Of a stretch of 64,000 nucleotides of DNA, positions 46,169-63,065 are shown one piece after another. Each line of letters opens with the position of its first letter. Within the stretch, counting starts at the first letter, position 1. The notes beneath the pieces were generated by a model, which was given only the letters and a program-made list of their open reading frames with translations, made no database searches and was not told the origin of the DNA. This DNA comes from Streptomyces parvus (GTDB lineage: Bacteria > Actinomycetota > Actinomycetes > Streptomycetales > Streptomycetaceae). The position numbers and the translations under genes are program-made. The DNA lies in the NCBI RefSeq assembly GCF_014648875.1, contig NZ_BMRY01000003.1, positions 620,001 to 684,000 of the forward strand, in the 5' to 3' direction.

Positions 46169-46170
46169 CT

Positions 46171-48151: not shown

Positions 48152-50278
48152 CTACCCGAGGAGGATTTCCGGGGGGACGGCGCCTTCGATGTCGCGTCGC
48201 TGGTATCCGGCGAGCGTGGTGCCGCTGATCTTCACTTGCTTGCTCGTCCGCTTCACGCCGGCGGCTTCGAGTTCGGCGGCCAGGCGCTCGCCGTTGAAGT
48301 CGCCGTACACGTCTTCGTCGAGGTTCACGAGCCCGGCGATGAGGTCGGTGGTGAACATCCGCGGGCTGTGCCGCATCACCTCCAGGACGTCGGAGAGGAT
48401 CGGCGCCAGCGTGAGCCCGGCGGCGTCGGCTGCTGCGGTGACGTCTCCGGCGGCGTCTCCGGTGAGCTGGTCGGCGGCCTGGCGGAGGGTGCGCCCGGTG
48501 GCGCAGAGCTTGGTGAACTCGACTCCGTCGAGGTAGTCGGCCCGCACGGTGACGTAAGAGGCAGGCCCGGTGACCAGCACCCCCGTACCGACGTGGTCCT
48601 CGGACAGGACGGACGCGTCGGCCCCCTGGGCGGCCTTGCCCTTGCCGAGAACCATGTCGGAAGACGCCTTGTCGACGACCTGCGTGGAGTACCGCAGGGT
48701 GATGATCTCCCGCAGCTTCGTCGGCACGGACTCGGCGTCCGGGCGCTGGGAGGCGAAGTTGGACACGAACCCGGCGGCGGGGCCGCGGCGGGCGATGCGG
48801 CACAGGTCGTTGATGACCTGGTCGCGGTCGTCCTTCTCCATCGCGGTGAAGTATTCCTGCAGCTCGTCGATGGTGACGAAGATGACCGGCAGGTTCTTCA
48901 GCTTCACGATTTCGGGGGTCAGCTTGCCCTCGGGGCACAGGGAGGTCGGGAGTTCGCGGAGGATCGCGAAGCGGCGTTCCATCTCGATGAGGAGCTCGGC
49001 GAGCATCGCCTTGAGCGCCTCGATGGCGTCGTCCTCGGCGCCCATGACGAGGCGGTGGGCGACGGCCCGCATGGGCATCCAGTCGGCGCCGCCCTTGCCG
49101 TCGGCGACGTAGTGCCGCACGTAGGCGTCCAGGAGCCCGGCCGCGGTCATGAGGCGCTGGGTGAACGTCTTGCCGCGGCGGGGCAGGCCGCCGAAGAACA
49201 TCGACTGCCACATGACCGGGACTTCGATGCGGTTGCCGCGGGCGTCCTGCCCGAACGGGATCGGGTCCCAGATCGAGAACGTCTCGGCTTTGGCCAGCGG
49301 CGACGGGTTCGGCGCCCCGAGGTAGGGGTCGTCGTCGGCGACCCACATGGACACCCGGCCGGCGTTGCCGCCCTTCGCCGCGCGGACGCGGGACATGATG
49401 ACCTGAATTTCGTCGACCCCGAGTTCCTGGGCGATGACCTCCCGCTTCGCGAGGACGTCGGACGCGGTCTTCCCGCCGCCCCTCGGCAGGTCGAAAATCA
49501 CAGCCCAGCCGCGGCCGTCACGAACCGGGCCCATCGTGCACGTAACCCGGGGGCCTTCCTCGTCGCCCCGGCCGCTTTTCAGGAGGCCAGCGGCACGGAG
49601 GGCGTCGTTGAGCTGCTGCGCGGACATGTCGACCCGCAGCGGCGGCGCCCCCTGGTCGAGGAGCACGGTGTCCTTGCCCCGGCCGAGGTGGGCGAGCGGG
49701 GTGACGACCGCTGCGGCGACCCCGGCCTGCACCATCGGGTCGGCGAGCATGATGCCGATGGTGGCTGCGGCGACCGCGGTGGCGGCGGCCCCGAACCGCC
49801 ACCTGCGCGTGCGGGTGCGGATGCCGTGAGCGAGCTGGAGCCGGGCGGCCAGCTCCACGTCCTCGGGCTTGGCCTTCGACTGGGCGCGCAGCGCCTTGAC
49901 CACCGCGCTGTGGTCCTGGGCGGACAGGGTCGGCCACATGCCGACGGTGGCCCGGTAGAACCCGCGGGCGGCCAGCAGCAGGGTCTTGACCAGGTACTTC
50001 GGGGTTCGGATGCCGTGGTAGCGGGCCTGCCACCAGGTGAGGCGGGCGAACGCGGCGACGTTGGCGCGGATCGAGGCGGCGGACCGGGCCCACACGGGCA
50101 GGACCGGCACGTCGGGGACGGTCAGCCAGTCGGCCAGGGGGTTGTCGGGGCGGTCGACGGCTTCGACGGTGTCGGGCTTGTCGACGGGGGCCGGCGGGGT
50201 GTCGAGGGTCTCGGGCGGGATGGGGTGGAGCTTGGTGAGGGTGTGCCCGTTGAGGGGGCGGGTGTCGACGTCCGTCAT
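48152..50278 (-). CDS. traB: TraB-type FtsK/SpoIIIE DNA translocase
   Basis: A 708-residue conjugation ATPase. N-terminal membrane segments lie at about 150-180 (AAATAVAAATIGIMLAD). The motor domain has Walker A GGLPRRGKTFT and Walker B VIFVTIDELQEYF. The C-terminal winged helix (about 630-700, KQVKISGTTLAGYQRRDIEG) is where related proteins read the clt repeats. TraB alone pumps double-stranded DNA between mycelial cells in Streptomyces. ATG 50278 follows AGGAGA. It is the last gene of the leftward transfer operon, 83 bases past the HNH gene. Confidence 0.92.
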   Translation of the reverse strand: MTDVDTRPLNGHTLTKLHPIPPETLDTPPAPVDKPDTVEAVDRPDNPLADWLTVPDVPVLPVWARSAASIRANVAAFARLTWWQARYHGIRTPKYLVKTLLLAARGFYRATVGMWPTLSAQDHSAVVKALRAQSKAKPEDVELAARLQLAHGIRTRTRRWRFGAAATAVAAATIGIMLADPMVQAGVAAAVVTPLAHLGRGKDTVLLDQGAPPLRVDMSAQQLNDALRAAGLLKSGRGDEEGPRVTCTMGPVRDGRGWAVIFDLPRGGGKTASDVLAKREVIAQELGVDEIQVIMSRVRAAKGGNAGRVSMWVADDDPYLGAPNPSPLAKAETFSIWDPIPFGQDARGNRIEVPVMWQSMFFGGLPRRGKTFTQRLMTAAGLLDAYVRHYVADGKGGADWMPMRAVAHRLVMGAEDDAIEALKAMLAELLIEMERRFAILRELPTSLCPEGKLTPEIVKLKNLPVIFVTIDELQEYFTAMEKDDRDQVINDLCRIARRGPAAGFVSNFASQRPDAESVPTKLREIITLRYSTQVVDKASSDMVLGKGKAAQGADASVLSEDHVGTGVLVTGPASYVTVRADYLDGVEFTKLCATGRTLRQAADQLTGDAAGDVTAAADAAGLTLAPILSDVLEVMRHSPRMFTTDLIAGLVNLDEDVYGDFNGERLAAELEAAGVKRTSKQVKISGTTLAGYQRRDIEGAVPPEILLG

Positions 50279-50361
50279 GATGTGGGTCTCCTGCTGGTCT
50301 GGTGGCTGGTCAGGGGCACGGGGCGGCCGGTGATCTTTGGCGGATGACGGCCGCCCCGTGG

Positions 50362-50886
50362 TTAGCGAGGGTCTCGCTGGGCTGCTCGGCGTCCACGCCT
50401 TCTCGCGTTGATCGCCTCACGGTTCGCCGCCCAACGCTCTCGGCGCTGCGCGTTGTGCTCCTCGCGGCGCTTCTGCTCGCGGGCCGCATCGCAGGTACGA
50501 CACTCGCGTGAACCGTTCGCGCGGATTCGGGTGTTCGTGGCGTCGTAGACATGGCCAGCCGGGCAGGCGGCCTTGGCGAGATTCGCAGCTGGCGTGGTCT
50601 CGCCACGAAGGACGTTCTCTCTAGCCGTCACCGGCTCAAGGTGATTCGGATTCACGCAGCTCCGAACCCTGCACAGGTGGTCCAGCTGGAGCCCTTCAGG
50701 GATTGCGCCAACGAGGACGGTAAAGGCGAACCGGTGAGCCAGAACAGAACGGCCCTGGAAGTAGAACTGCCCGTACCCGTTCCCAATCTGGCCCGCGGTC
50801 CAGAGCAGGCATCCGCTGGCGTCGACCATGACCTTCGACCAGAAGCGGCGCATGTCCTTCTCGCGCGCGTCGGTCTGCATGGTCAC
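50362..50886 (-). CDS. HNH endonuclease with C-terminal zinc ribbon
   Basis: A 174-residue protein. The HNH motif is LQLDHLCRVRSCVNPNHLEPVT (about residues 66-87), preceded by the beta strand of a phage-type HNH domain; a CPAGH...CRTCD zinc motif and an Arg-rich tail follow. It resembles free-standing homing-type HNH enzymes. GTG 50886 overlaps the stop of the upstream gene; ATG 50880 is the alternative. Third codon positions look less GC-rich than in traB, hinting at separate acquisition within the operon. Confidence 0.82.
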   Translation of the reverse strand: MTMQTDAREKDMRRFWSKVMVDASGCLLWTAGQIGNGYGQFYFQGRSVLAHRFAFTVLVGAIPEGLQLDHLCRVRSCVNPNHLEPVTARENVLRGETTPAANLAKAACPAGHVYDATNTRIRANGSRECRTCDAAREQKRREEHNAQRRERWAANREAINARRRGRRAAQRDPR

Positions 50887-51206
50887 TGGTTCTCGGCCCG
50901 GTTCACGGCCCGCTCGGAGCGCTTGAGCTGCTGCTCGGCTTCCCGCAGGGCCTGCCGGGCGGCGGCCTTGTCCTCGCGGGACGCGGTGCGCACCTTGGCC
51001 TTGGCCTGGGCGACGGCCTGCCGGTCGGTCTCCCGCACGGTGTGCAGGGCGTTCAGCTCTCGGCGGCCGCGCTCGGCGGCGGACTGGTCGATGGCCTGGA
51101 TCTTGCGCTCAACGGCGGGGTCGACGCAGTCGGCGAGGGCCTGGCGGAAGCCCTTCCGGAACAGCTTTCCGCGCTGGCGGGACTCGGCCCGGGTGTACGA
51201 GTACAT
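50883..51206 (-). CDS. Basic coiled-coil protein of the transfer operon
   Basis: A 107-residue protein from ATG 51206, with GAGAGGAC upstream. It is strongly charged and helical (AVAQAKAKVRTASREDKAAA, ALREAEQQLKRSERAVNRAE), predicting a coiled coil. No known domain. Its place between DUF3307 and traB suggests an accessory spread function. Confidence 0.65.
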   Translation of the reverse strand: MYSYTRAESRQRGKLFRKGFRQALADCVDPAVERKIQAIDQSAAERGRRELNALHTVRETDRQAVAQAKAKVRTASREDKAAARQALREAEQQLKRSERAVNRAENQ

Positions 51207-51228
51207 GGGGTGTCCTCTCGGGTGAATG

Positions 51229-51621
51229 TCAGGCTGCGAGGTACAGGGCGGCGACGGTGAGCGCCAGGATGTGCGCGGTCTGGTCGACATGGGCGGCACC
51301 GCCGCGCTCTGCCCATTCCTGCTGGTGGGCGAGCTTCATCCAGCGGACGACGAGCCGTCGGCGGTCGATGGCGGCGTGCGTCGCGCCGATCCAGAGAACT
51401 GCGGCAGTGCTCGGCAGCAGGCCAGCGGATTCATCGAGGACGGCTGCAGCGACGGCGAGAGCGAGCGAACAGAACGCGACGTGCGTCCCGGCGTGTGCCA
51501 GGTTCGCTCGCCATCCGACCGCGCCGGACGCGGCCTTGTGGCCAGCCTGGTGGTCCGTCTGGAACGGGTAGTCGGCAAGAAGATGCGCGAGGTAGAGCAG
51601 GACGAACAGGGTGGGGAACAT
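51229..51621 (-). CDS. DUF3307 integral membrane protein
   Basis: A 130-residue protein with about four helices, opening MFPTLFVLLYLAHLLADYPF, the DUF3307 signature. His and Asp residues (THAAIDR, VDQTAHI) are spaced along the helices. Function unknown; membrane proteins of this operon are thought to help plasmid spread in the mycelium. Confidence 0.75.
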   Translation of the reverse strand: MFPTLFVLLYLAHLLADYPFQTDHQAGHKAASGAVGWRANLAHAGTHVAFCSLALAVAAAVLDESAGLLPSTAAVLWIGATHAAIDRRRLVVRWMKLAHQQEWAERGGAAHVDQTAHILALTVAALYLAA

Positions 51622-51697
51622 GGGCTGTCCTCTCGTTCGGGTCCGGGCTTTCCGGTCCGCCGCCCGCCCGGTGCGAGACCGGGCGGACAGCCGCCCG

Positions 51698-52009
51698 TCA
51701 GCGGCCCCGCTGGACGTCCTGCCACACGGACCGCAGGACGAGGACGCACACGGTCAGGGCCACCGCGCTGATCGCCACGGCGACGGCGGACAGGGCGAAC
51801 GCGATCAGGAAGACGGACCCGCCGATCCCGATGCCAATCCACTTAGCCGCGGACCTTGCCGGGCGGACCGCCGGCGGCGCCGGGTACGCACTGGGTGCGC
51901 CCCCCTGGGCGAGCTGCTGCGCCTGGAGGACCGCGAGGATCAGGGCGACCTGCTCACTGTTCGCCTGCGCGTCGACCGCGTCCCGGGCGGCCTTCTCAAG
52001 GTCGCTCAT
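51698..52009 (-). CDS. Spd-like small membrane protein
   Basis: A 103-residue protein. Residues 1-50 are hydrophilic and Ala/Pro/Gln-rich, then two adjacent hydrophobic helices span about 56-95 (IGIGIGGSVFLIAFALSAVA). The ATG overlaps the stop of the DUF2637 gene. Size, topology and place fit the small Spd proteins of Streptomyces conjugative elements. Confidence 0.7.
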   Translation of the reverse strand: MSDLEKAARDAVDAQANSEQVALILAVLQAQQLAQGGAPSAYPAPPAVRPARSAAKWIGIGIGGSVFLIAFALSAVAVAISAVALTVCVLVLRSVWQDVQRGR

Positions 52010-52857
52010 GACGCACCCCCGGCGGTGACGAGCGCCAGCTGACCGGAGGTCGGCTGCGCCTTCTGCTCGTCGTCCAGGCGGGCGAACACCTTCTTCACGT
52101 ACGACACGCTGCGGGTGGCCTGCCGGGCCGTTTCCGCCACCGGGGTGCCCGTCACCCAGCCCGCCCGGATGATCGTCGCGGCCGCTTCCGTCGGCAACCG
52201 TTCCTCCGGGCTGGTGGTCACCTCGTCGTCCGGATCGGGGGTGGGAACGGTCAGGGTGAACACCCGGCGGTCACCGCAGATGACCAGCGGATTCACCACC
52301 GGGGCGGGCGGCGCCTGCTCGATGGCGACCGGGGCGGTGGCGGTCACCTCGTCCGGGGTGACCGTGGCCACCTCGGCGCGGTGCACGGCCGGTGCGGCGA
52401 CGTCGTCCGGGGTGACCCCCTCGTCGGTGTCCTCGTCCCCGGTGAGCGCCTGGTGCACCTGCCGCATGAGTGCCCCAAACGCCAGCAGGGCGGCGGTGGG
52501 CGGCACCGCGGCCACCACGTAGTCGAGGAGCGGCACCGCCCCGGCGTCGCGGGCACCGGCGACCCCGGCGACGTTCAGGACGATCGAGCCGACCGAGCCG
52601 ACCGCGGTGAGCGCGATCGCCCACCCGTCGACCTTCCGGGCCAACGCGGCCCGCAGCATCATCAGTTCACCGGCGACGATGAACAGGTCCAGGGTGGCCG
52701 GCCACGCCCAGGCGCGTTCCTTGGCCTGCCCGAGACCGTGCGCCAACGCGACCTCGGCCAGGTGCGCGTACGACAGCCAGAACGCGGCCCCGGTCAGCGC
52801 GATGATGACGAGCCCGGCCGCGATGGCCAGAGCACGGGAGGGATCGAAGCGGCTCAT
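52006..52857 (-). CDS. DUF2637 / SpdB-type membrane protein
   Basis: A 283-residue protein from ATG 52857. Four helices lie in the first 140 residues (ALAIAAGLVIIALTGAAFWL at the start). They include AWAWPATLDLFIVAGELMML, the DUF2637 core typical of AICE spread proteins. The C-terminal half is soluble, with Pro/Thr/Val repeats and a helix-turn-helix-like end (VAETARQATRSVSYVKKVFA). It is coupled to both neighbours by four-base overlaps. Confidence 0.85.
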   Translation of the reverse strand: MSRFDPSRALAIAAGLVIIALTGAAFWLSYAHLAEVALAHGLGQAKERAWAWPATLDLFIVAGELMMLRAALARKVDGWAIALTAVGSVGSIVLNVAGVAGARDAGAVPLLDYVVAAVPPTAALLAFGALMRQVHQALTGDEDTDEGVTPDDVAAPAVHRAEVATVTPDEVTATAPVAIEQAPPAPVVNPLVICGDRRVFTLTVPTPDPDDEVTTSPEERLPTEAAATIIRAGWVTGTPVAETARQATRSVSYVKKVFARLDDEQKAQPTSGQLALVTAGGAS

Positions 52858-53222
52858 CGGCCGGCCTCCCCGGTCCGCAGGACGGACAGCTGACGGGCCA
52901 GGCGGCGCAGCGTCCCCGCGTAGTCGACGAGCAGCGCGGCCAGCTCGTCCAGCTCGCCCGGGGTGAGGGTGCTCGCCAGGTAGCCCATGGCGACGTACAC
53001 GCCGGTGTTCCGGTCGGCGCCCGTCGCGAACGGGTCCTGGACGAGCTCGGCGGTGGCAACCTCGTGCCCGTAGAACTCGGCGCGGTGCTGCGGCCCGCGG
53101 TGCCCGGTGTCCCGCAGAGCCTCGGGCTCCTGGTCGTGGCTGTCGACGCACCAGGACGGTTCGGGCATCGTGACGGGCCCGTGGTCGGTGGTGTGCACCG
53201 TAACGGTGCGGTCGGCGGTCAT
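52854..53222 (-). CDS. DUF6907-like protein
   Basis: A 122-residue protein from ATG 53222. PEPSWCVDSHDQEPEALRDTGHRG is a Cys/His cluster of the kind seen in DUF6907 proteins, common in AICE transfer operons (family name from memory). The last 60 residues form helices (LTPGELDELAALLVDYAGTL). Function unknown. Confidence 0.65.
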   Translation of the reverse strand: MTADRTVTVHTTDHGPVTMPEPSWCVDSHDQEPEALRDTGHRGPQHRAEFYGHEVATAELVQDPFATGADRNTGVYVAMGYLASTLTPGELDELAALLVDYAGTLRRLARQLSVLRTGEAGR

Positions 53223-53491
53223 CGGCCGGCCTCCGTGTCCGTGCAGTGGCGGTACCCAGTGGCGGGGTATTCGGTCAGCCGCTGGCGGAGGTGGTCGGCG
53301 TTCCACCCGTAGTCGTCCGGGTTCTCGGCGAGGGCGGCGCGGGCGGTGGTGACGGCGAGGGCGGCCCGGCGGTCCAGGACGGCGCGGTAGGCCTCGGTGT
53401 CGCCGATGGTGGCGGGGTGCGGGAGGTCGATGGCGTCGAGGACCGCAGCAAGGAGTGCGCGGAGCCCGTCGGTGGTGGGCTGGGTGCTCAT
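53219..53491 (-). CDS. Hypothetical transfer-operon protein
   Basis: A 90-residue mostly helical protein from ATG 53491, overlapping both neighbours by four bases. DTEAYRAVLDRRAALAVTTA and HLRQRLTEYP are the main ordered parts. No family recognised. Confidence 0.65.
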   Translation of the reverse strand: MSTQPTTDGLRALLAAVLDAIDLPHPATIGDTEAYRAVLDRRAALAVTTARAALAENPDDYGWNADHLRQRLTEYPATGYRHCTDTEAGR

Positions 53492-54099
53492 CGGGCCACC
53501 CCCGTACGGCCGGCCGCCGACCGGATCGCGGCCATCTTGGCGCGCACCGCGCGCAGCCGGTCCAGGTGCACGGCCATGTCCTCGATCAGCTCGTCGACCT
53601 GGTCGATGTCGAGCTCGGGCCAGTCCCCGTTGCCGACGAACGCCAGCTCGACGGGGGAGTCTCCGAGCTGGGAGAGGCGGAAGGCCATGACGTCGAAGCC
53701 GTACGCGCCGTGCATGGCGATCTGGGGTCCGTGGTGGAAGTGCTCGCGCGGGTCGGCATGGTCGCCCGGGTCGGCGGTGCACCACAGGTGCCCGTCCGGG
53801 CAGAGCGGGTGAGCGGCGGCGCGGAGACCGTCGGCGACGTGGGCAACGAACACGGCCCGGTCCATCTTCGCTGCCGTCTCCGGCATCTCGGCCGCAATCC
53901 GGTCGGCGACCTGCTCAGCCAGCAGCGCGTATGTCGGGGCGGCGGCCACGATCTCGATGACGGGGTTGCCCTCGGCGTCGCACGGCGCACCGGCGCCGAA
54001 GGCGGCCCGGAGCGCGGGCTCCAGCGGATCGACGGCGGGCACCGGCTGGGGGGTGCGCTGCTGCGGCATGGCGGGGAGGGTGGGTACGGTAGTGCGCAT
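53488..54099 (-). CDS. First gene of the transfer operon, DUF6907-like
   Basis: A 203-residue protein from ATG 54099 with AGGGAG upstream. The middle has LCPDGHLWCTADPGDHADPR, a Cys/His cluster like that in the gene at 52854. The C-terminus is helical (ELDIDQVDELIEDMAVHLDRL). It starts the leftward operon driven by the promoter at 54199-54227 after a leader of about 90 bases. Confidence 0.7.
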   Translation of the reverse strand: MRTTVPTLPAMPQQRTPQPVPAVDPLEPALRAAFGAGAPCDAEGNPVIEIVAAAPTYALLAEQVADRIAAEMPETAAKMDRAVFVAHVADGLRAAAHPLCPDGHLWCTADPGDHADPREHFHHGPQIAMHGAYGFDVMAFRLSQLGDSPVELAFVGNGDWPELDIDQVDELIEDMAVHLDRLRAVRAKMAAIRSAAGRTGVAR

Positions 54100-54198
54100 G
54101 GTTCAGCTCCCTGTTGGAGAGGGATTTGGACCTAGGCCCTTCCTGGTGGTTGCACACCGGGTTGGGCCGTTCCGCGTTTTACGGTAGGTCGCGAGTCC

Positions 54199-54227
54199 AT
54201 ACTAGGGTGGTCTGAGTCGAAAAGCAA
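54199..54227 (-). promoter_or_regulatory. Promoter of the transfer operon
   Basis: On the minus strand, -35 TTGCTT (54222-54227), a 17-base spacer and -10 TAGTAT (54199-54204). The -35 lies inside the 17-bp operator, as at the XRE promoter. Confidence 0.75.
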
Positions 54228-54230
54228 CTC
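54214..54230. promoter_or_regulatory. 17-bp operator, right copy
   Basis: GAGTCGAAAAGCAACTC matches the left copy at 14 of 17 positions. Both are followed on the plus strand by an AC..GCGAGG tract. It is expected to bind the same repressor. Confidence 0.65.
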
Positions 54231-54384
54231 ACTCGCGAGGATGGGTTGGCTCCGCTCCAGTACGTACGACGTACACATGAGGCAGTGATAATCGGGCATA
54301 GGTCATGAGACGCGATGAGAGCAAACTCGCAGGTCAGGGCCCTGCCGGGCGGATTCCGCAGGTCCGGGCGGGGGGCTGATAGAC

Positions 54385-54429
54385 CTCGTAATGCGTAGGT
54401 CTCGGGTTCGAATCCCGAAGGCGGCTCAG
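54385..54429. repeat. attR: second copy of the 45-bp att core
   Basis: Identical to 39356-39400. It marks the right end of the AICE and is directly followed by a terminator hairpin, as expected downstream of a tRNA 3' end. Confidence 0.95.
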
Positions 54430-54432
54430 AAG

Positions 54433-54467
54433 AACCCCAGGTCACATAGCCCGTGACCTGGGGTTTT
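54433..54467 (+). terminator. Intrinsic terminator just right of attR
   Basis: A 13-bp stem (54433-54445 with 54453-54465) with a 7-base loop, ending in TTTTCT. Before AICE integration it would have followed tRNA-Thr directly. Confidence 0.85.
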
Positions 54468-54537
54468 CTGTTGCTCGGGGCATGGCAGGACACATGGTGG
54501 GAGTACCGTGGTTCGCCTACGTGACCGGGGCGGGGGC

Positions 54538-54912
54538 TTAACTACGGCGGAAGAGCCTGCTCTGGCCCCGATGCTTGCCGGTTCTCCTGCCGGAGGCCGA
54601 CCGCCCCACCTTGGCGGAATCGATCGGCCGGCTGGAGCCGGCCGGGCGGTTCTCGTTGAAGAAGGATTGCCAGACCCGTTCCTGCAGCGCGCCGATGCAG
54701 GCGCCGCACGCGTACATCGGGGCCTGGGCCCCGGCGACTCTGGCGGGGCCGATCCACAGGACGGGCGTCCACCGCTGCCCGCAGTAGAGCCAGCAGGGTC
54801 CGTCGACCCACTCGTTGCCGTCGTCGGTGGCTGCCGGTGAGGGCAGTCCTCCTCGGGCGAACTCGGCGATCCCGGGGATCGCCCTGTGCTGTAGGACGAC
54901 TTCCGTCAGCAT
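54538..54912 (-). CDS. Hypothetical protein, last gene of the island unit
   Basis: A 124-residue protein from ATG 54912, preceded by GGAGGGAGA. CWLYCGQRWTPVLWIG and YACGACIGALQERV give four cysteines that may bind zinc. The Arg/Ser-rich C-terminus is probably disordered. No family recognised. It follows the CYTH gene by 19 bases. Confidence 0.6.
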   Translation of the reverse strand: MLTEVVLQHRAIPGIAEFARGGLPSPAATDDGNEWVDGPCWLYCGQRWTPVLWIGPARVAGAQAPMYACGACIGALQERVWQSFFNENRPAGSSRPIDSAKVGRSASGRRTGKHRGQSRLFRRS

Positions 54913-54931
54913 CGCTCGTCTCCCTCCGCGA

Positions 54932-55519
54932 TCAACGGTCCTGGGCCGTGGGAGAAGCGTCCTTCTGCTTCTCGGTTTCGGAGAACAAGAGCGTGGGTTC
55001 GGCGAGGATGTCGCGCCCGGCTTCGCTCTTGTAGATCTCGTCGACGCTGCCGAACCGGGCCTCGGAGTAGTCGAGGTCCAGCAGCGCGGCGGCCTGGCGT
55101 ACCGATGCCTCGTCGGGTCCTTCGATTTCCAGGAAGGTGGGGAGGTCGGGCCAGGTGTCGAAGTCGAAGGCGACCTCGCCCAGGCGCCATTCCTCGCGGT
55201 AGTTCTCCTGGTACCGGACCTCGGTGAGGCCTGCCCGGCGCAGGATGTCGGCCATGGCGTGCAGGTCGGTGACCTCGGTCTCGATCTCCTTGGTGCCGTC
55301 GATCGTCGTTGCGTCGGTGACCTGCTTGAGCGTGAGCGTCGAGCGGGTGCCCTCGTCCCGCAGACGGATCCAGGCTCCACCGTCGAGGGAGTCGTTCTCG
55401 AAGATCTTGCGGGTGAGGAGCGTGCGGGGGAATGCCTGGACCGCATTGAGGGCGCTCAATTTGTTCTGGAGGTCGGCGACGTCGACGGCCAGGAACTTCG
55501 CCTCGTATTCGTGCTTCAT
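54932..55519 (-). CDS. CYTH-domain protein (class IV adenylate cyclase / CyaB-like)
   Basis: A 195-residue protein from ATG 55519. It opens HEYEAKFLAVDV, the E-x-E-x-K-type CYTH signature, and continues with charged strands (WIRLRDEGTRSTLTLKQVTD, KEIETEVTD, FLEIEGPDEASV) lining a triphosphate tunnel. Family members hydrolyse or cyclise triphosphates such as ATP or thiamine triphosphate; the activity here cannot be chosen. It appears intact, unlike several neighbours. Confidence 0.82.
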   Translation of the reverse strand: MKHEYEAKFLAVDVADLQNKLSALNAVQAFPRTLLTRKIFENDSLDGGAWIRLRDEGTRSTLTLKQVTDATTIDGTKEIETEVTDLHAMADILRRAGLTEVRYQENYREEWRLGEVAFDFDTWPDLPTFLEIEGPDEASVRQAAALLDLDYSEARFGSVDEIYKSEAGRDILAEPTLLFSETEKQKDASPTAQDR

Positions 55520-55529
55520 GGGGTCTCTC

Positions 55530-56192
55530 TTAGAAGTGGTCGGTGAGGGTGGATGTCCGGGCCGCGAGCAGGAGGCCCATGCGGTGGGTGTGGTCGTGCA
55601 ACTGGCCGACGTGGGCGTGTTCCGTGAACTCGGTGGTGCGCAGGGTGAGCAGGACCTCCCAGTCGCCGATGAAGTGGGCGTGAAGGCGTTCCGGGGAGGT
55701 GTAGTGCTCGATCATGTGGTGGCGTCTTTCGACGGGCATCATGAACTCCGCGCCGAACATGCCGCCTGGGCGGACCAGGCGCTGCATGCGGTCGACGAAC
55801 TCGCCGAGCGGGCGGTGGTGGTTGGCACTGTAGTGCCACGAGCAGCTCGTCCAGACCGCGTCGCACTGCAGGCCCAGGGGCTCGCCGTCCAGGAAGTCGT
55901 CCTCAACGACCTATACGCGTTCGTGGAGTTCTTCGAGCTTCAGCCGATCGATCAGTCCCAGCGCGTGGGCCTGGCTGTCACCCGGGAGGTGGACGTGGCC
56001 CCCGTGGAGGGCGACATCGTCGCGTTCGATGGCGACGACGCGGTAGCCGGCGGCGGCGAGGGGCAGGACGAACTTGCCGTCGCTCGCGCCGACCACCGCG
56101 ACGGTGGCGTCAGGGGCGACGCGTTCCCGCAGCGTGGCGAGGAACTGCGGGAAGAACGTGAGGGTGTGCTCCCACAGGCTCTGCGTCTGCAT
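55530..56192 (-). pseudogene. Class I SAM methyltransferase interrupted by one amber codon
   Basis: A 220-codon reading frame broken by a single TAG (55911-55913). Before it, VAVVGASDGKFVLPLAAAGY and VVAIERDD are SAM motifs I and II. After it, in the same frame, come VVEDDFLDG, AVWTSCSWHYSANHH and a post-motif region LVRPGGMFGAEF. The protein sequence continues smoothly across the stop, so a Tyr or Gln codon probably mutated. ATG 56192 follows AAGGAG. As it stands the gene gives a 93-residue N-terminal fragment; an internal restart at 55787 is possible. Confidence 0.75.
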
Positions 56193-56310
56193 GGGGGTGC
56201 GCTCCTTGCGTCTCGGTATCCATGATCACTCGGAGGGCCTCGTCGGGGCTGTGCCCCGTGGTGTCGACGCGATGCATCGCGAACGATGCGTAGGCGTCCG
56301 TCACTCGCAC
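56110..56310 (-). pseudogene. Kinase-like C-terminal remnant
   Basis: A short frame from GTG 56310, overlapping the radical SAM stop. Its first 35 residues include SFAMHRVDTTGHSPDEAL, which resembles the end of small P-loop nucleoside or adenylate kinases; no P-loop is present. After the methyltransferase start (56192) it reads out of frame through that gene. Possibly a real small coupled protein, but more likely a leftover tail. Confidence 0.35.
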
Positions 56311-57053
56311 CAGAAGGCGTGCGCGTTCTTCCCCACGGCTTTGCAGGACATGGTCAGCGCACCGCGCGGGTCGACCTCAATGCGGTCGATTTCGCGAGGA
56401 CCATCGGATGGGGCACACACCTGCGGGGCACCGTCCTCGGAGAGGTCCTCGTCGACGATCACCTCCCATGGCAGATCGGCTGACGCCAGCTCGTCCCGGA
56501 GTCGGCCGTAGGCGGAAGGGGAGGTGACCAGCAGCTCGGGATGATCGGCGGCGTTGCCGACCGGCCGCAGGTGGTGGAGCTTGAGCTGCCGCACCCCGAG
56601 TTCCGCCAAGGCCCTTCCGAGGGGCAGGACTTCGGCGATGTTCCGCGAGGTGACGGTCATGGTCGCCCCGGTCGGAACACCGAGATCCCGAGCAAACCGG
56701 AGCGCTTCCAGGGCGCTCTGGTAGCTGCCCTGCTTTCGGATGCCGTCGTTGGTCGACCCGACGCCCTCCAGCGAAACCCTGAGCAGGTCCAGGTAGGGGG
56801 CGATTTCGGTCAGGCTGCTCTCGATCCGGCACCCGTTGGTGCAGATCTCGACGCGCAGGCCCAGTTCCTCCTTGGCGTGGTGGACGACTTGCGTGAGGTC
56901 CCGGTGGACGAACGGTTCTCCGCCGAGCAGGGTCACGGCCTCGGTGCCGTACTCGTCCCGCATCAGGGTGAGGAGATCCGCGGCTTCGTCGATGGTGAAG
57001 GCGTCGGTGTACTGGAGCCGCTTGCCGTGGAAGCGGGGGCTACGAGGGTCCAC
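56301..57053 (-). pseudogene. Radical SAM protein lacking its [4Fe-4S] N-terminus
   Basis: About 250 residues from GTG 57053. The body is clear radical SAM: LLGGEPFVHRDL (SAM-binding GGEP), VEICTNGC, LRVSLEGV and ATMTVTSRN. The usual CxxxCxxC that binds the cluster should lie 25-45 residues before GGEP, but the protein begins there with PRSPRFHGKRL. The upstream open frame to 57107 has a single Cys and overlaps the end of the previous gene. The gene is therefore truncated at its 5' end and cannot work as a radical enzyme. The C-terminus has two cysteines (MSCKA, FWCE). Confidence 0.75.
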
Positions 57054-57070
57054 AGGCCATGTACGGCAAC

Positions 57071-57901
57071 CTAGTGAAGTCCCTCGACCTGGTCCTTGGC
57101 CCACCACAGGAACGCGGCGGCGTGCTGCTGGTTGGCGAAGCCCTGGCCGACGAGGTCATTCAGCAGGTCGTTGCTCCAGAGGATGAGCCGGCCGAGGGTC
57201 CAGTTCACCGACTCGGGTGCCGGCAGTTCCAGTCCGTAGACCCTTCGCGCGATCTCGCGCTTGCCGCCCGCCTCCGTCGTGTACTTGAGGATCGTCAGGA
57301 ACCGGTCGGGGTACATCACGCAGAGAACCCTCGTGAGAAGGGCCTCCTTGAAACCGGTCATGGCGAACGTCTTGGTGCCGTCCAGCAGGTGCTGGAGCCG
57401 GTCTTCGAGCGGCACGTCGTCGGGGCCGTACAGCAGGTACTCGATCGTCTCGCGGGTCGCCTCCCCGGCCGCGGCGTCGCCCATGTCGTTCCACGCGGAG
57501 TTGAAGGTGGCCTGGTTGCCGGGGCGGGCCCCGAGCTCGGAGTTGGCGAAGTCCTTGAGGACTCTGGGGTCGCACGCCCACAGTCCCTCGGGGGAAAAGA
57601 TCTGCTGGTACTTCGACCAGTAGGCCGCCACGTCGGGGTCGAAGTCCGGTTTGACCGCGAGGTACTGCTCCTTCAGCCGGGCCACGCGCTCCAACTGCCC
57701 GGGATCGACGTCTCCGGGTTTCGGGAAACGGGCCTTGAGGTCGCCGATGGTGCGGAGCGGGTTCCTCTGCGGAACGGTGGGCTCCCTGTGCTCCCATTCG
57801 TAGCCGCACCGGTGCTTCACGAGCCGACGTCCGCCGTCCAGCGTGCGGATCACCTCGATGTCCTCGTCGTCGCTGCACAGTGGACACATAACCAACGCCA
57901 T
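57071..57901 (-). CDS. Zinc-ribbon protein, possible restriction-associated domain
   Basis: A 276-residue protein from ATG 57901. An N-terminal zinc ribbon (MCPLCSDDEDIEV ... KHRCGYEWEH) is followed by a helical domain with WSKYQQIFSPEGLWA, FNSAWNDMGD, FKEALLTRVLCVMYPDRFL and NDLVGQGF. The latter loosely recalls N-terminal DNA-recognition domains of McrB-like restriction systems, but the match is weak. The TAG of the VapC remnant ends just before its ATG. Intact, unlike both neighbours. Confidence 0.6.
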   Translation of the reverse strand: MALVMCPLCSDDEDIEVIRTLDGGRRLVKHRCGYEWEHREPTVPQRNPLRTIGDLKARFPKPGDVDPGQLERVARLKEQYLAVKPDFDPDVAAYWSKYQQIFSPEGLWACDPRVLKDFANSELGARPGNQATFNSAWNDMGDAAAGEATRETIEYLLYGPDDVPLEDRLQHLLDGTKTFAMTGFKEALLTRVLCVMYPDRFLTILKYTTEAGGKREIARRVYGLELPAPESVNWTLGRLILWSNDLLNDLVGQGFANQQHAAAFLWWAKDQVEGLH

Positions 57902-57903
57902 GG

Positions 57904-58300
57904 CTACCCCCGTTCCAACAGTGCTCGTGCCCGCTCGGAGCCGATGCACTTGTCCATCCAAGGGCTGCATTCTTGCACCCGGCAAAGGTGGGCGGATGTG
58001 GGGCCATCCGGCGAGACTGCCGCAGCCTCCGACGCAGTGGAGGACCGTCCGCCGGTTCGGTTCCGCTGTGGCGGCGACCAACAGGTCGGGCAGGGACAGA
58101 GCGCGGTGGGAGCAGGCGTTGAGAGCATGGCGCTGGATCTCGAGAGCGCGAATGAGGACGTCGTCGTCGGTGCGGAGGTAGTCGAAGGCGTGCAGCCGGG
58201 TGCTGATCCGCGTTGCTTCCGAGCTGTCGCGTGCAGGGTGGATCATCTCGAACTCGGTGGGCCGGCTGGTCCCGAGGATGCGCATGGCCTCGACAACCAT
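57904..58300 (-). pseudogene. VapC-type PIN toxin, truncated and frameshifted
   Basis: From about 58290 to 58037 the frame reads TEFEMIHPARDSSEA, LRTDDDVLIRALEIQR and LSLPDLLVAATAE then TVLH, the C-terminal two thirds of a VapC PIN domain. The N-terminal VDTSA part is missing, cut at the att-like site. At about 58030-58037 the match moves to the next frame (SEAAAVSPDGPT), with the DxDF motif lost; third-position GC also switches frame there. The shifted frame ends with TAG at 57904. No antitoxin gene is adjacent. Confidence 0.65.
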
Positions 58301-58308
58301 GTCTTCGT

Positions 58309-58330
58309 CGAATCCCGAAGTCGGCGCAGT
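58309..58330. repeat. Degenerate third copy of the att core 3' end
   Basis: TCGAATCCCGAAG matches the att core exactly over 13 bases, and 20 of the final 22 positions match (both mismatches are within the last nine). It is followed by a hairpin, like the other two copies. Confidence 0.6.
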
Positions 58331-58368
58331 AGGACCAGCTCGGACCCCCTCCGAGCTGGTCCTACTGG
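58328..58368. terminator. 18-bp hairpin at the island's right edge
   Basis: A perfect 18-bp stem (58328-58345 with 58351-58368) around a CCCCC loop. Probably the original terminator of tRNA-Thr before the islands arrived. No U-tract. Confidence 0.75.
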
Positions 58369-58563
58369 ATTCCTGGGCCGGCCTCGGGCCGCGGGCGGTC
58401 CCGGGTGGCTGAAGGTCTTCTGTTGCGATGGCAGGAAGGTGCCAACTCTTCCCTTCCGGCAGTCGGCCTGTCCTATGGTTTCGCTGGCCGGGGGGCTGTG
58501 CAGTGACGGGCGACTTCTCGCTTCCGAGCTGCCGGCGCACACAATGTTGTGGGGGAGTTTCTG

Positions 58564-59613
58564 ATGCGATCGCACCGGAGCGCATTGGCTGCGCCCACGA
58601 CGGACCGGGCCACAGGGACGCTGCTCGCTCAGCTGGAGATCGATGACGGTGAGCTGACGGCGCGGCTGGCCGACGGGCTCGAAGCGGCGGAGAAGGGGCT
58701 CCAGGACACCGCGGCCACCGCTGCGGACCCCCGGATCGCGGAGCTGACCGGGCATCTGGCCGCGTTCGGGGGCAAGCGGCTGCGGCCGCTCCTGGTGCTG
58801 CTGGGGGCGGAGTTCGGGGAGCCGTGGCGCGCGGGGGTGACCGAGGCCGCCGTCATCGCCGAGCTGGTCCATGTCTCCTCGCTCTACCACGACGATGTGA
58901 TGGATGCCGCCACCACCCGGCACGGGGTGCCCAGCGCCAACGCCCGCTGGGGGGAGCGGTCCGCCGTCTTCGGCGGGGACTGGCTGCTGGCCCGCGCCGC
59001 GAAGCTCTCGGCGGCGCTCGGAGCCGAAACGATCCGGCTCAATGCGGAGGCGGCAGGGCGGTTGGTCACCGGGCAGCTCCGGGAACTCATGGGGCCGGCT
59101 CCGGGGGAGGACCCCGTCGACCACTACTTCCAGGTGCTCAACGGGAAGACGGCCGCGCTGTTCTCCCTGGCCCTGGCCATCGGCGCCCATCAGGCGGGCG
59201 CCCCCACCGCTTCGATCCAGGCGCTCGACGAGTACGGGAGACAGCTCGGCCTCGCCTTCCAGATAGCCGACGACCTGCTCGACCTCACCGCGCCGGTCGA
59301 CTGGACCGGCAAGGAACGCGGGAAGGACCTGGCCACCGGAGTGGCCAGTCTCCCGGTCCTCCTCGCCCGCGCCGACGAGAGCGCGGACGGCGCCGAACTG
59401 CGGGAGATCCTGCTCGCCGGGCCGTTGACCGACACAGCGGTACGCCAACGAGCCCTGGAGCTCTTCCGGACCTCGCCGGCCCTCGCCACCACCGAGGACA
59501 TGATGCACCGGCGGCTGGCCCGGGCGCGGGCCGCGATCCAGGGTCTCGCGCCGCACCCGGCGCACCAGGCCCTCCACGCGCTCTGCGCGTTCATGGCGGC
59601 GAGAACGGCGTAG
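58564..59613 (+). CDS. Polyprenyl diphosphate synthase
   Basis: A 349-residue trans-prenyltransferase. First Asp-rich motif LYHDDVMD (preceded by GGKRLRP), second motif QIADDLLD, and KTAALF between them. It condenses isopentenyl diphosphate with allylic diphosphates, probably for menaquinone side chains; chain length cannot be read with confidence. ATG 58564 has GGGGGAG six bases upstream; GTG 58549 is less likely. The upstream 233 bases mark the return to core sequence. Confidence 0.93.
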   Translation: MRSHRSALAAPTTDRATGTLLAQLEIDDGELTARLADGLEAAEKGLQDTAATAADPRIAELTGHLAAFGGKRLRPLLVLLGAEFGEPWRAGVTEAAVIAELVHVSSLYHDDVMDAATTRHGVPSANARWGERSAVFGGDWLLARAAKLSAALGAETIRLNAEAAGRLVTGQLRELMGPAPGEDPVDHYFQVLNGKTAALFSLALAIGAHQAGAPTASIQALDEYGRQLGLAFQIADDLLDLTAPVDWTGKERGKDLATGVASLPVLLARADESADGAELREILLAGPLTDTAVRQRALELFRTSPALATTEDMMHRRLARARAAIQGLAPHPAHQALHALCAFMAARTA

Positions 59614-59739
59614 GCCCGCGACTCGCGCGTGCCCCACGGCGGTCCCCGGCGGCCGTGCCCCCCACGGTGGCTCCTGGCCGCCGCACCGCAACCTCGACGC
59701 CTACCGCGCAGCTCATACGCTGACCGAAGGAACCGCTCC

Positions 59740-61818
59740 ATGCAGGCTCTGGCCGCCGACAGCGTCGGCGACGTTCCCTTTGCTGTGTTCATCGTTCTGG
59801 CCGCGGCGGTCTCCCTCGGTGTGATCGTCTTCGCCGTCTCCACCGCCTCGCGCCGGCTGCTGGGCATCCGGGTCGGCCCCATGAGAGCCATGACGTCCGG
59901 CCTGGTCGGCCTGGCCGTTTTCATCCTCTTCGACCAGGTGGTGCGGGACGAGGAGAGTCTCAGAGCGCTCTCGACGGTTCAGGTGGCGCTGTCGCTGCTG
60001 GGCGCGATGGCCACCCTCGTGGTGGTCGAGGTCTTCGTCCCGTACGGCAGTTGGGCGCGGCCTCTCCAGATCGTGCGGACGCTGGGGCGCAGGCTCCGCC
60101 GTACGCGCCGCTACATCCAGATCAGCCGCATCTTCATGCGCCACGGGCTGGGGCGCTACCTGCGCGACCGGAGCAGCATGGACCGCGCTTTCGAGGCGAA
60201 CGAGGCCGGTCGGCAGTCGGCCAGGGCGCTGCGACTCGCGCTGGAGGACTGCGGGGGCGCGCTGATCAAGCTGGGCCAGGTCCTGTCCACCCGGAGCGAT
60301 CTGCTGCCCCCGCACTTCATCGACGAGCTGAGCCGGCTTCAGTCGAATGTTCCCCCGGCGCCGTGGCCCGAGGTGGCGGCGGTGCTCCACAAGGAGCTCG
60401 GCAAGCCGGTCGAGGAGGTCTTCGACTGGATCGAGCACGTGCCGCTCGCCGCCGCCTCGATCGCGCAGGTGCACCGGGCCCGGCTGCGCGGCGGGCCCAG
60501 CGTGGTCGTCAAGGTCCAGCGGCCGGGGATACGCGAGAGCATCGAGCGCGATCTCGACATCGTGCTCGCCATCACGCGCAGCCTCCAGGACCGGGCCAGG
60601 TCGGTGCACGCCCTCGGGCTGCGGGACCTGGGCGACGGCTTCTCCGTGTCCGTGCGCGAGGAGCTGGACTTCCGGATCGAGGCGCGCAACTCCTCGGCGG
60701 TGGCGGAGGCCTGCGACGGGTACGCGCCGGATGCGACGGTGCGCATCCCCCGGGTCCACTACGAGTTCACCTCGTCCCGCCTCCTGGTCCAGGAGTGGCT
60801 GGAGGGTGTCACGCTCGACCGCGCGGGGAAGGTGGCCGACGAGAAGGGGTGGGACCGGCACGCCCTGGCCCGTACCGCGCTGGGCGCCGTGCTGGACCAG
60901 ATCCTCCGGTACGGCGTCTTCCACGCCGATCCCCATCCGGGCAACATGCTGCTGCTCGACGACGGGCGGCTCGGGCTGCTCGACTTCGGTTCGGTGGGCA
61001 GGATCGACCCGTCGGCGCGGCTCGCCATCCAGGAAGTGCTGGTCGCCATCGATCGGGGCGATCCCGCAGCCATGCACGACGCGTTGATCGACCTGCTGGG
61101 TACCCGGGCCACCTCGCGCGACGGCATCATGCCCGACTCGCTGCTCCTGGAACGGGCGTTGGGCAGGTTCATGGCCCAGCACCTCGGGGCCGGCGGTCAG
61201 CCCGACGCCGAGATGTTCACCGCCCTGTTCCGCATGCTGACCCGCTTCGACCTGGCAGTGCCCCCGGAGGTCGCCGCGGTCTTCCGGGCGATCGCCACGA
61301 TCGAGGGCACCCTGGAGCGGCTCGCGCCGGGCTTCAACATCCTGGATGAATCACGGGCGTTCGCCGCCGATCTGCTCACCGACCGGCTGCATTTCGGCTC
61401 CCGGCGGAAGGCGGCGGGCGGGAAGACCGGCTTCGCCGGCTTCGACGTGCCGTCGCTGGCCCGGGAAGCGGCCCAGGAGGCGATGGCGATCCTGCCGATG
61501 CTGCGGAGGCTGCCGCGGCGGGCCGAGCGCATCAGCGCCTCGCTGGAGGAGGGGCGGCTCGCGGTGCGCGTGCGCGTCCTGGCCGACGAGCGGGAACAGC
61601 GCTTCGTCGCCGGCCTCGTCCACCAGGTGGTGATCAGCCTGCTCGCCGCCTGCACCGGGGTGATGGGCGTCATGCTGGTCGTGTTCGGAACCGGCAAGGG
61701 ACCACGCGTCACCCCGCAGCTGGAGCTGTTCCCGCTGCTCGGCTACCACGCCCTCGTGGTGAGCGCCATCCTCACGCTCCGGGCGCTCTACACGGCGATG
61801 CGCAGATCCGTCCGGTGA
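59740..61818 (+). CDS. ABC1/UbiB family atypical kinase
   Basis: A 692-residue protein from ATG 59740 with GAAGGA upstream. N-terminal hydrophobic helices (about 15-37, 47-65, 75-100) and a C-terminal pair (about 630-680) flank an ABC1 domain. Motifs: ALIKLGQVLSTRSDLLP (KxGQ), AAASIAQVHRA (Ala-rich loop), FHADPHPGNM and LLDFGSVG. UbiB-type proteins support quinone biosynthesis, so pairing with the polyprenyl synthase makes a menaquinone-related role plausible. Confidence 0.9.
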   Translation: MQALAADSVGDVPFAVFIVLAAAVSLGVIVFAVSTASRRLLGIRVGPMRAMTSGLVGLAVFILFDQVVRDEESLRALSTVQVALSLLGAMATLVVVEVFVPYGSWARPLQIVRTLGRRLRRTRRYIQISRIFMRHGLGRYLRDRSSMDRAFEANEAGRQSARALRLALEDCGGALIKLGQVLSTRSDLLPPHFIDELSRLQSNVPPAPWPEVAAVLHKELGKPVEEVFDWIEHVPLAAASIAQVHRARLRGGPSVVVKVQRPGIRESIERDLDIVLAITRSLQDRARSVHALGLRDLGDGFSVSVREELDFRIEARNSSAVAEACDGYAPDATVRIPRVHYEFTSSRLLVQEWLEGVTLDRAGKVADEKGWDRHALARTALGAVLDQILRYGVFHADPHPGNMLLLDDGRLGLLDFGSVGRIDPSARLAIQEVLVAIDRGDPAAMHDALIDLLGTRATSRDGIMPDSLLLERALGRFMAQHLGAGGQPDAEMFTALFRMLTRFDLAVPPEVAAVFRAIATIEGTLERLAPGFNILDESRAFAADLLTDRLHFGSRRKAAGGKTGFAGFDVPSLAREAAQEAMAILPMLRRLPRRAERISASLEEGRLAVRVRVLADEREQRFVAGLVHQVVISLLAACTGVMGVMLVVFGTGKGPRVTPQLELFPLLGYHALVVSAILTLRALYTAMRRSVR

Positions 61819-61844
61819 CCGGGACGGGTGCGGGACTCCACGGC

Positions 61845-63065
61845 TCACCGCAGCCTGACCGGAAGCTCCTTCAACGGGCGTACGACCACGTTCTGTTCGT
61901 ACCGCAGTTCGGAGGGTGCGACGGCCAGCGAGACGGCGGGGAAGCGTTCGAAGAGCCGCCGGGAGCCGATCTCGGTGATGACCTTCGCCAGATGGGCGCC
62001 CGAGCAGTAGTGGATGCCGAAGCCGAAGCTGAGGTGGGCCGGCTTGTGCCGGTCGAGATCCAGCCGGTCCGGGTGGTCGGGGAACTGGTCCGTGTCGCGG
62101 TTGGTCGACATCACGCTGATGACGACGACCTCACCGGCGGGGACGGTCACCCCGCCGATCTCGACCGGTTCGGTGGTGACCCGCTGTAGCGCGTTGCTGA
62201 TCGGGCCGACGTACCGGATGAGTTCGTCCATCGACTTGCCCCAGCGGCCGGGCTCCGCCAGCAGCTGGGACCGCTCCGCCGGATGGGTGAGAAGGGCGGC
62301 CATGACCCCGCCGAGCAGGCTGGCGGTGGTGTCGTTGCCGCCGGTCATCAGCGCGAAGCCGGTGGACAGGATCTCGGTGCCGGTCAGCCGGCGTTCCGGG
62401 TCGGCGTGGATGAGCGCGGAGAGGAGGTCGTCGCCCGGCTCCCGGCCCTTGCGTTCGATGAGCTCGGACATGTACGTCGACAGCTCCTGGATGCTGCGGT
62501 CCAGAACCCCGGAGCCGTCCGTGGGGGAGTACGTGCGCAGGGCGGCCGACCAGCGCAGGAAGTCGGGCCAGGCGTCGGCGGGTACGCCCATCAGCTCGGC
62601 GATCGTGATGACGGGCAGCGGGTCGGCGTAACCGGCGATCAGATCGGGGCGGGGGTGTGCCGCCAGCCGGTCCAGCAGCTCGTCGGCGATCTCCTCGACG
62701 CGCGGCCGCAGCGCTTCGGCCCTGCGCGGGGTGAAGGCGAAGCTGATCGCCCGGCGCAGCGGTGTGTGGCGCGGCGGCTCCAGATTGGCGAGGTGGTTCG
62801 CCTCCTCCGGTGGAGGGGTCATCGGCCGTCCGGTCCGCTTCGACATCAGCTCGTAGTGCACATGGATGTCGCGGCTCAGCCGGGGGTCGGCGAGCGCGTC
62901 CTTCGCGTCGTCGTACCGGGTCACCACCCAGACACGGTCCCCGCCCGGCATGGACAGCTCGCGTACGGGGCTCTCGCGCCGCACGTACTCCAGGATCGGA
63001 TAGGGGTCCTGCGTGAAGTCGTTGGTGAGCATCCAGTACTTGGAGAGTGTCCGCGTGCCTGCCAT
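61845..63065 (-). CDS. Cytochrome P450
   Basis: A 406-residue soluble P450. Heme loop FGFGIHYCSGAHLA with the ligand Cys354; I-helix motif ALMTGGNDTTAS (Gly and Asn where AGxET is common); ExxR as ELIR. ATG 63065 is preferred over 63152 because GGAGGAC precedes it. No redox partner gene is adjacent. The C-terminus ends 26 bases from the converging ABC1 gene. The substrate is unknown. Confidence 0.94.
   Translation of the reverse strand: MAGTRTLSKYWMLTNDFTQDPYPILEYVRRESPVRELSMPGGDRVWVVTRYDDAKDALADPRLSRDIHVHYELMSKRTGRPMTPPPEEANHLANLEPPRHTPLRRAISFAFTPRRAEALRPRVEEIADELLDRLAAHPRPDLIAGYADPLPVITIAELMGVPADAWPDFLRWSAALRTYSPTDGSGVLDRSIQELSTYMSELIERKGREPGDDLLSALIHADPERRLTGTEILSTGFALMTGGNDTTASLLGGVMAALLTHPAERSQLLAEPGRWGKSMDELIRYVGPISNALQRVTTEPVEIGGVTVPAGEVVVISVMSTNRDTDQFPDHPDRLDLDRHKPAHLSFGFGIHYCSGAHLAKVITEIGSRRLFERFPAVSLAVAPSELRYEQNVVVRPLKELPVRLR

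Follow-up and report, generated by a model that had tools for sequence, protein, structure and literature searches.

The stretch of DNA analysed here (the window) is 64 kb of Streptomyces parvus, positions 620001-684000 of contig C3 in a genome assembly of 8.03 Mb and 57 contigs. It contains a tRNA-Thr gene with anticodon CGT, tRNA-Thr(CGT), whose 3' half is the first of three copies of an attachment (att) core, and our subject is the DNA bounded by these copies: an actinomycete integrative and conjugative element (AICE) nearest the tRNA gene and, beyond it, what are very probably the remnants of two older elements, A and B/C (Table 1). AICEs excise and transfer as double-stranded DNA. The one in the window has an integrase gene beside the att site, a replication gene, an FtsK-like transfer protein and att at both ends; the 607-aa gene after Prim-Pol had no match in Pfam. 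The nearest relative seen is contig C48 of genome G034, 15.27 kb long with the core at both ends (89% amino acid identity for the integrase, 80% for FtsK), and comparison of the window AICE proteins with other islands gave weak matches only, at loci L079 and L083.

Table 1. Features of the tRNA-Thr(CGT) locus, in window coordinates
Feature	Coordinates	Strand	Basis or remark
tRNA-Thr (anticodon CGT)	39324-39398	+	ARAGORN; attachment target
att copy 1	39356-39400	+	3' half of the tRNA-Thr gene, anticodon loop onward
AICE-like element	39401-54384		integrase, Prim-Pol and FtsK/SpoIIIE genes between att copies 1 and 2
Tyrosine integrase, adjoining the tRNA	39492-40718	-	Pfam 9.9e-21
Prim-Pol protein	41844-42689	+	Pfam 1.8e-22
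FtsK/SpoIIIE protein	48152-50278	-	Pfam 1.8e-7
att copy 2	54385-54429	+	shared boundary: AICE to the left, element A to the right
Terminator hairpin after att copy 2	54430-54471	+	fold z
Element A remnant	54520-57034	-	genes: hypothetical, CYTH, methyltransferase and a radical SAM fragment
CYTH-domain protein, open, 195 aa	54932-55519	-	Pfam PF01928 7.8e-11
Methyltransferase gene	55530-56192	-	in-frame stop at 55911-55913; stop-to-stop reading frames
Radical SAM gene, both ends truncated	56301-57034	-	comparison with relatives
A-B fusion junction	57030-57040		L119/L127 alignment; att expected between the elements gone
Element B/C remnant	57034-58311	-	gene B, vapC fragment, vapB fragment
Gene B, open, 275 aa	57071-57898	-	B block 57034-58019; relatives in 32 loci
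vapB 5' end (58267-58311) fused to vapC 3' part (58010-58266)	58010-58311	-	alignment to the intact pair
att copy 3	58308-58329	+	final 22 bp of the core, 20/22 matching (2 mismatches)
Hairpin after att copy 3	58330-58366	+	no T-run

Copies 1 and 2 of the core (39356-39400 and 54385-54429) are identical at 45 of 45 bp. The original prediction, made from the letters of the window, held that the last 22 bases of this core recur once more with two mismatches, and so they do, at 58308-58329, one base to the left of the place it gave. With 20 of 22 bases shared, and a right-hand sequence that is not the usual core flank either, this could be coincidence, 54.4-58.3 kb then being ordinary decayed chromosome. 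The expectation for a chance match at ≤3 mismatches is, however, 0.01 per 64-kb window. As a control, the first 20 bases of the 22-mer were searched in 1.63 Mb of fetched sequence (86 loci of at least 10 kb, partly overlapping, many chosen as att carriers; copy 3 of the window excluded), giving 63 matches at ≤2 mismatches. In every one of the 63 the agreement extends upstream, to ≥16 of the 21 core bases before it; neither a chance match nor a partial one was thus seen. Moreover, copy 3 is located where relatives have their right core copy, and in other species the DNA of 54.4-58.3 kb is found within att-flanked cassettes. The probability left for coincidence is negligible.

A terminator-like hairpin had also been proposed after each copy. 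The sequences 3' of copies 1, 2 and 3 all fold (z scores -7.2, -5.1 and -8.3), but the first hairpin begins about 28 bp past the att copy instead of directly at it, and the third lacks a T-run. The hairpin after copy 2 identifies a former neighbour: 54432-54471 is the sequence directly 3' of tRNA-Thr in G005 (40/40 bp, 100%), and 54385-54504 matches the tRNA-Thr end and downstream sequence in G066 (95% over 121 bp, core included). The DNA from 54430 onward therefore once adjoined the tRNA gene. In displaced full core copies the match to the tRNA starts near the anticodon loop (left ends compared by eye), and the sequence downstream of them varies by genome.

The segment 54430-58330 was searched in 392 Streptomyces genomes (E ≤ 1e-30). 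Some part of it matched in 100 of these, its own included, and the matches form separate modules. In place of the single older element that had been predicted there are two remnants, A (54520-57034) and B/C (57034-58311).

Element A is 94-95% identical to a 5.4-kb cassette in G066, where the layout is tRNA-Thr, A alone, and a full core copy, with A oriented as in the window. That cassette carries hypothetical, CYTH, methyltransferase, kinase, radical SAM and HAD genes; none of its eight scanned reading frames is integrase-like, and neither Phage_integrase nor Resolvase was detected in it. The methyltransferase gene, interrupted in the window, has a full-length homologue at locus L119. In G005, tRNA-Thr, a decayed and only partly present A and a full core copy follow one another within 3.1 kb, with no Phage_integrase found in the interval; the 119 bp around the right core copy are 82% alike between G005 and G066. 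With att at both ends and no integrase or transfer genes detected, A in these two genomes has the makeup of a cis-mobilizable element (CIME). About 0.5 kb that follows the hairpin in G066 is missing from the window, through loss here or gain there.

Gene B had no match in Pfam, PADLOC, PHROG or NCBIfam. Its relatives (45-95% identity) occur in several actinobacterial genera, mostly with no tRNA-Thr core nearby. At the 32 loci with a relative of gene B we looked for the rest of a gene set, i.e. helicase, vapC and vapB, by tblastn (E ≤ 1e-15). The full set with at least one core copy is present at five of them (S. regalis, S. sp. NBC_01549, S. luteolifulvus, S. caniscabiei and S. scabiei), with two core copies at four and one at the fifth; at locus L140 one of the copies has 3 mismatches. 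Core, helicase and vapBC were not found at the other 27. The arrangement in the relatives is core, B, a helicase-nuclease gene (~2100 aa), vapC, vapB, core, in the same order and orientation as in the window, and the intact vapBC pair has PIN and VapB_antitoxin domains. In three of the five carriers the tRNA gene itself contains the first core copy; NBC_01549 and S. caniscabiei are the exceptions, and the cassette there lies farther along an array or has been relocated. Neither Phage_integrase nor Resolvase was detected in the B/C intervals of G097, G248, G319 and G405, and no integrase-bearing ancestor of B/C was seen. The relatives therefore resemble CIMEs as well (att at both ends at four of the five loci, no integrase or transfer genes detected). 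The B/C remnant of the window no longer has att at both ends, its left site being lost and its right site truncated, and its identity to the att-flanked 8.9-10 kb cassettes is 89.6-94.5% for B and 82-89% for C.

The gene abutting copy 3 had been read as a vapC lacking its 5' end. It is instead a fusion, in which the 5' end of vapB runs into the 3' part of vapC, and it is vapB that is cut at the att copy; the pair, complete in relatives, is thus both fused and truncated here. In the relatives a full core copy follows vapB, the terminal gene of the element, and this supports reading 58308-58329 as an att site at the right end of an older element. The prediction's central idea, that elements accreted in tandem at tRNA-Thr and that the AICE is the one closest to the tRNA, is likewise supported.

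Alignment of the junctions to relatives (L119 for the A side, L127 for the B side) places the fusion of A to B at 57034 and reveals four more deletions: (i) ~0.52 kb at ~56305, removing most of the kinase gene and the radical SAM C-terminus; (ii) 6.3-6.8 kb at 58010-58019, with the helicase-nuclease gene; (iii) ~0.29 kb at 58266/58267, producing the vapB-vapC fusion; and (iv) ~0.42 kb at 58308-58311, which cost vapB its start and the core its first 23 bp. Within the remnants, the CYTH gene and gene B are still open. At the last scar, att copy 3 is joined to vapB through a common TCGA, and this abrupt stop of the outer att at a 4-base shared sequence points to deletion and not drift. The third att had been described as having drifted; two mismatches agree with that, but its main damage is truncation by the ~420-bp deletion.

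These scars bear on the idea that one older element carried A, B/C and an integrase and decayed as a unit, its att drifting by point mutation. A single degenerate outer att is indeed left, no att stands between A and B, and elsewhere the A genes are often near integrases: among eight fetched A loci away from tRNA-Thr(CGT), five have a Phage_integrase gene within 15 kb (G182, G025, G289, G052 and G402), and in G182 an integrase gene with one in-frame stop lies between a tRNA-Thr(TGT) gene and A. Yet A and B/C were never together in the loci examined, A standing alone in G066 and G005 and B/C alone in five species; the outer att ends by deletion; and the coding genes of the B/C relatives leave little room for an integrase, none being found. 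We consider a single ancestral element quite improbable. Drift following loss of its integrase, as originally worded, also lacks support, for relatives of both A and B/C exist at this tRNA without a detected recombinase, and integrase loss in this lineage is not needed. The fuller relatives that this idea called for do exist, att-flanked, for both elements, but no integrase was found in those at this tRNA. For A, integrase loss may still apply, given how often its genes elsewhere lie ≤15 kb from an integrase, and A may come from, or also have travelled in, integrase-bearing elements.

Several other placements of the A genes were seen. In G256 and G382 tRNA-Lys precedes them, at distances of 0.6 and 1.6 kb, and no second tRNA-Lys core copy was found beside them; in G182 they are 2 kb downstream of tRNA-Thr(TGT). 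Loci L118, L120 and L123 have A-type cargo at differing tRNA targets (tRNA-Lys twice, tRNA-Thr(TGT) once). The one 4-mismatch core match, at L120, sits in a tRNA-Glu gene.

We conclude with good confidence that tRNA-Thr(CGT) has been a serial insertion site, and that the window holds the AICE together with two fused, deletion-eroded older elements. B/C would have arrived first, A second and the AICE last. At each insertion the 3' half of the tRNA gene would have served as attB, the tRNA being rebuilt and the earlier element pushed outward with a displaced core copy. Comparison with the relatives shows that deletions have worn down the remnants, fusing A to B, removing the helicase-nuclease gene, joining vapB to vapC, and taking the vapB start with half of the outer att and the kinase/radical SAM region. 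As CIME-like cassettes, A and B/C may have been mobilizable in cis or in trans, with a neighbouring AICE supplying an integrase that acts on the core they share. The outer att lacks the anticodon-loop half, where the duplicated core begins, which would make it a non-working site and leave the remnants trapped. With the middle att gone and the outer one truncated, individual excision of A or B/C from the window is probably no longer possible.

Serial arrival has to be weighed against a composite transfer, in which A and B/C came with the AICE, or with each other, in one cis-mobilized unit. Co-transfer of a CIME in tandem with an integrative and conjugative element (ICE) is reported, including TR1-TR2 of plant-pathogenic Streptomyces (PMC5704250, PMC9513070, PMC8369830). 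In the nearest relatives at the locus, G066 and G005, A nevertheless occurs alone, with neither AICE nor B/C, so that A at least is present here without the AICE in close relatives. Joint arrival seems rather unlikely.

The B/C cassettes have moved between species, since their identity exceeds that of the flanking core genes: species that share 76-80% identity in the core genes next door have 92-98% in the main cassette blocks. Between S. regalis and S. luteolifulvus the cassette is 97.8% identical over 7.9 kb and 89.8% over 1.3 kb, against 80% for the tRNA-side flank. The values for S. regalis and S. scabiei are 92% over 5.9 kb, 90% over 2.5 kb and 87% over 0.6 kb, with a flank of 76%, and for S. 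scabiei and S. luteolifulvus 86-93% in the cassette and 78% in the flank. Between the window and S. regalis, B is 94.5%, the vapC part 83% and the flank 76.5% identical.

The core was surveyed in 30 genomes, partly chosen because they carry the segment or several copies, so that the counts are not genus-wide frequencies. It was found in 29, with none for a reversed-pattern control, and at least two copies are present in 21 (in G019 the second copy is on another contig and has 2 mismatches). Recombinases were counted, in the same chosen sample, in same-contig intervals between neighbouring core copies (E ≤ 1e-5, a threshold that a degenerate integrase could escape). Across 13 intervals from seven genomes, a set that excludes a 1.36-Mb gap in G393, Phage_integrase was detected in one and Resolvase in none. 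With G000, G005, G025 and G034 added (Resolvase scored in the first 13 only), Phage_integrase was found in three of 17, two of these being the AICEs of G000 and G034. The 14 integrase-free intervals measure 3.1-13.4 kb, except for one of 37 kb.

Several observations weigh against the history that we favour, in which B/C, A and the AICE arrived in turn, among them the limited reach of that recombinase search. The order of arrival is read from position and not from dating. The intermediate A-att-B/C was found in no genome, and the middle att site is for this reason only inferred. The identity of the C part to its relatives is modest (82-89%). In G230, B directly follows tRNA-Thr with no C and a single core copy, and in G227 B is present with no core. 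None of the eight A loci fetched away from tRNA-Thr(CGT) carries a core copy, and the frequent nearness of integrases at those loci counts on the same side. Nor does A show much contrast between cassette (95%) and flank (91-93%), its carriers at this tRNA being close relatives.

The right flank adds two further difficulties. The usual neighbour there is a bifunctional exonuclease/DNA polymerase gene (product name read from the sequence), present as such in 33 of 37 genomes at E ≤ 1e-100 and separated from tRNA-Thr by ~2 kb in G026 and by tens of kilobases in other genomes. In this genome it is on contig C16, not C3, and what lies right of 58330 has its matches at other positions in other genomes. 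The outer end is thus unanchored in the core chromosome, and no empty site is demonstrable in this lineage. Matches to the right-hand sequence in G006 lie on its contig C7, both for the part near the window and for the C3 end, and its tRNA-Thr is on C9. When 58331-64000 was used as query, 384 of 392 genomes matched at E ≤ 1e-100, with most of the matches listed covering only 63353-64000, a common gene family; the part adjoining the att was matched in a minority among the matches listed, at 72-83% and longest in G006, on a contig other than that of its tRNA-Thr. No further att copies were found in the 79 kb right of the window at ≤4 mismatches (L084, L085), or near the C16 polymerase gene at ≤5 mismatches (L134, L135, L137), and comparison of the C16 flank with the near-empty site in G026 aligned the polymerase gene alone. 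A polyprenyl synthase gene right of 58330 was tried as a conserved core flank and rejected, as its best matches outside its own genome reach ≤77% (295 genomes). This gene belongs to a stretch of ~84 kb that starts just past the third att hairpin, runs to C3 762975 and also encodes a UbiB-like kinase, among others. The two ends that were tested have their matches at G006 C7 685-773 kb, in the same order.

A broader reading, which we offer tentatively, is that tRNA-Thr(CGT) in Streptomyces is a cassette locus, occupied by small att-bounded units (mostly ~3-13 kb) that lack recombinase and transfer genes and form tandem stacks. On the same speculative footing, the units would be passed between species, several with defence or inter-bacterial toxin cargo, on an integrase borrowed from a visiting AICE, and the window might show such an array as deletions erase it in the wake of a recent AICE insertion. 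In relatives, the B/C helicase matches PDC-S37, a candidate defence family, at 2.6e-62 (and NCBIfam ProA at 2.3e-68, far under its cut-off), and the A kinase matches PDC-M51B, another candidate defence family, at 1.8e-20. Both candidate anti-phage genes, the PDC-S37 helicase and the PDC-M51 kinase, have been deleted from the window. Ten large reading frames from other intervals in G022, G248, G319 and G393 were scanned for profile matches only: these were GajA and GajB (Gabija), one PDC-S27, two RHS proteins (PT-HINT or Tox-MPTase5), one Laminin_G domain and one SEC-C motif, with three frames unmatched.

G022 (C151:119304-138294; L182, L183) has four core copies in a row, and the three intervals that they bound (5.4, 4.8 and 8.8 kb) yielded no recombinase; the GajA-GajB pair is in one of them and a PDC-S27-like gene in another. 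In G248 (C33:43708-57109; L184) and G319 (C1:4570090-4581330; L188), the toxin domains encoded in the next cassettes, PT-HINT or metallopeptidase, belong to large RHS proteins.

Elements are known to accrete at tRNA genes, and CIMEs, att-flanked but integrase-less, are an established class (PMC5704250, PMC9513070, PMC3146451); AICEs and an ICE at tRNA-Thr are already published (PMC9513070, PMC3218068). CIMEs in tandem with ICEs or with integrative and mobilizable elements include the ICESt1-related elements (PMC5704250). A and B/C are like these in being att-bounded, devoid of integration and transfer genes and accreted beside an integrase-bearing element at the same site, and B/C is unlike them in that its integrase-less gene set recurs in five species, so that no recent loss of an integrase is seen. 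TR1 of S. scabiei is described as a CIME mobilized by TR2 (PMC8369830), which makes a mobilized CIME in Streptomyces less novel. TR1 and the ICE TR2, at aviX1, share with our case the genus and a CIME separated from the ICE by an internal att, and differ in target gene, in their far larger size and in cargo (PMC8369830, PMC10711302). The CR.B island is near a tRNA-Thr gene, which it uses as its target (PMC10711302). Dehalococcoides islands at ssrA lie in tandem within ~100 kb of one RNA gene, 15 having no integration module and being possible cis-mobilizable elements (PMC3146451); these involve serine recombinases, tmRNA and reductive dehalogenase cargo, unlike the tRNA-Thr target, tyrosine integrase and candidate conflict-system cargo here. 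In a Streptomyces population, AICE/DAICE accretion at tRNA-Arg, an AICE with an ICE at tRNA-Thr, and a conserved remnant lacking traB are described (PMC9513070). Those elements, too, are Streptomyces elements in tandem at one tRNA gene; they were mainly identified by traB, whereas the older elements here show no replication, transfer or integrase genes even in their fuller relatives.

Among the titles and abstract beginnings listed in searches of the open-licence literature, we found no earlier report naming the A or B/C cassettes. Accretion and CIMEs being known, in Streptomyces as elsewhere, the window is a new and unusually well-resolved case, in which a 22-bp hint grew into a history of one tRNA gene that took in two att-bounded cassettes and an AICE, the deletions being placed almost to the base. 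It includes a cassette with no detected integrase that has moved between Streptomyces species only 76-80% identical in local core genes, and the idea that integrases are borrowed at actinobacterial tRNA genes can be tested on it. Should the pattern prove to hold, surveys relying on an integrase or traB would overlook mobile defence and toxin cargo at tRNA genes.

Larger rearrangements were noted at two related loci. (i) On G393 C12, the B/C cassette (1179008) and an integrase-headed array (2542906-2565455) with the same core are 1.36 Mb apart, a possible att-mediated rearrangement. (ii) On G005 C1:3271608-3429921, the islands and the tRNA-Thr segment to which they belong seem to be in inverted orientation with respect to the DNA on either side (the homologue of window 1-19000 and the polymerase gene), and the inversion breakpoint lies beyond the att array.

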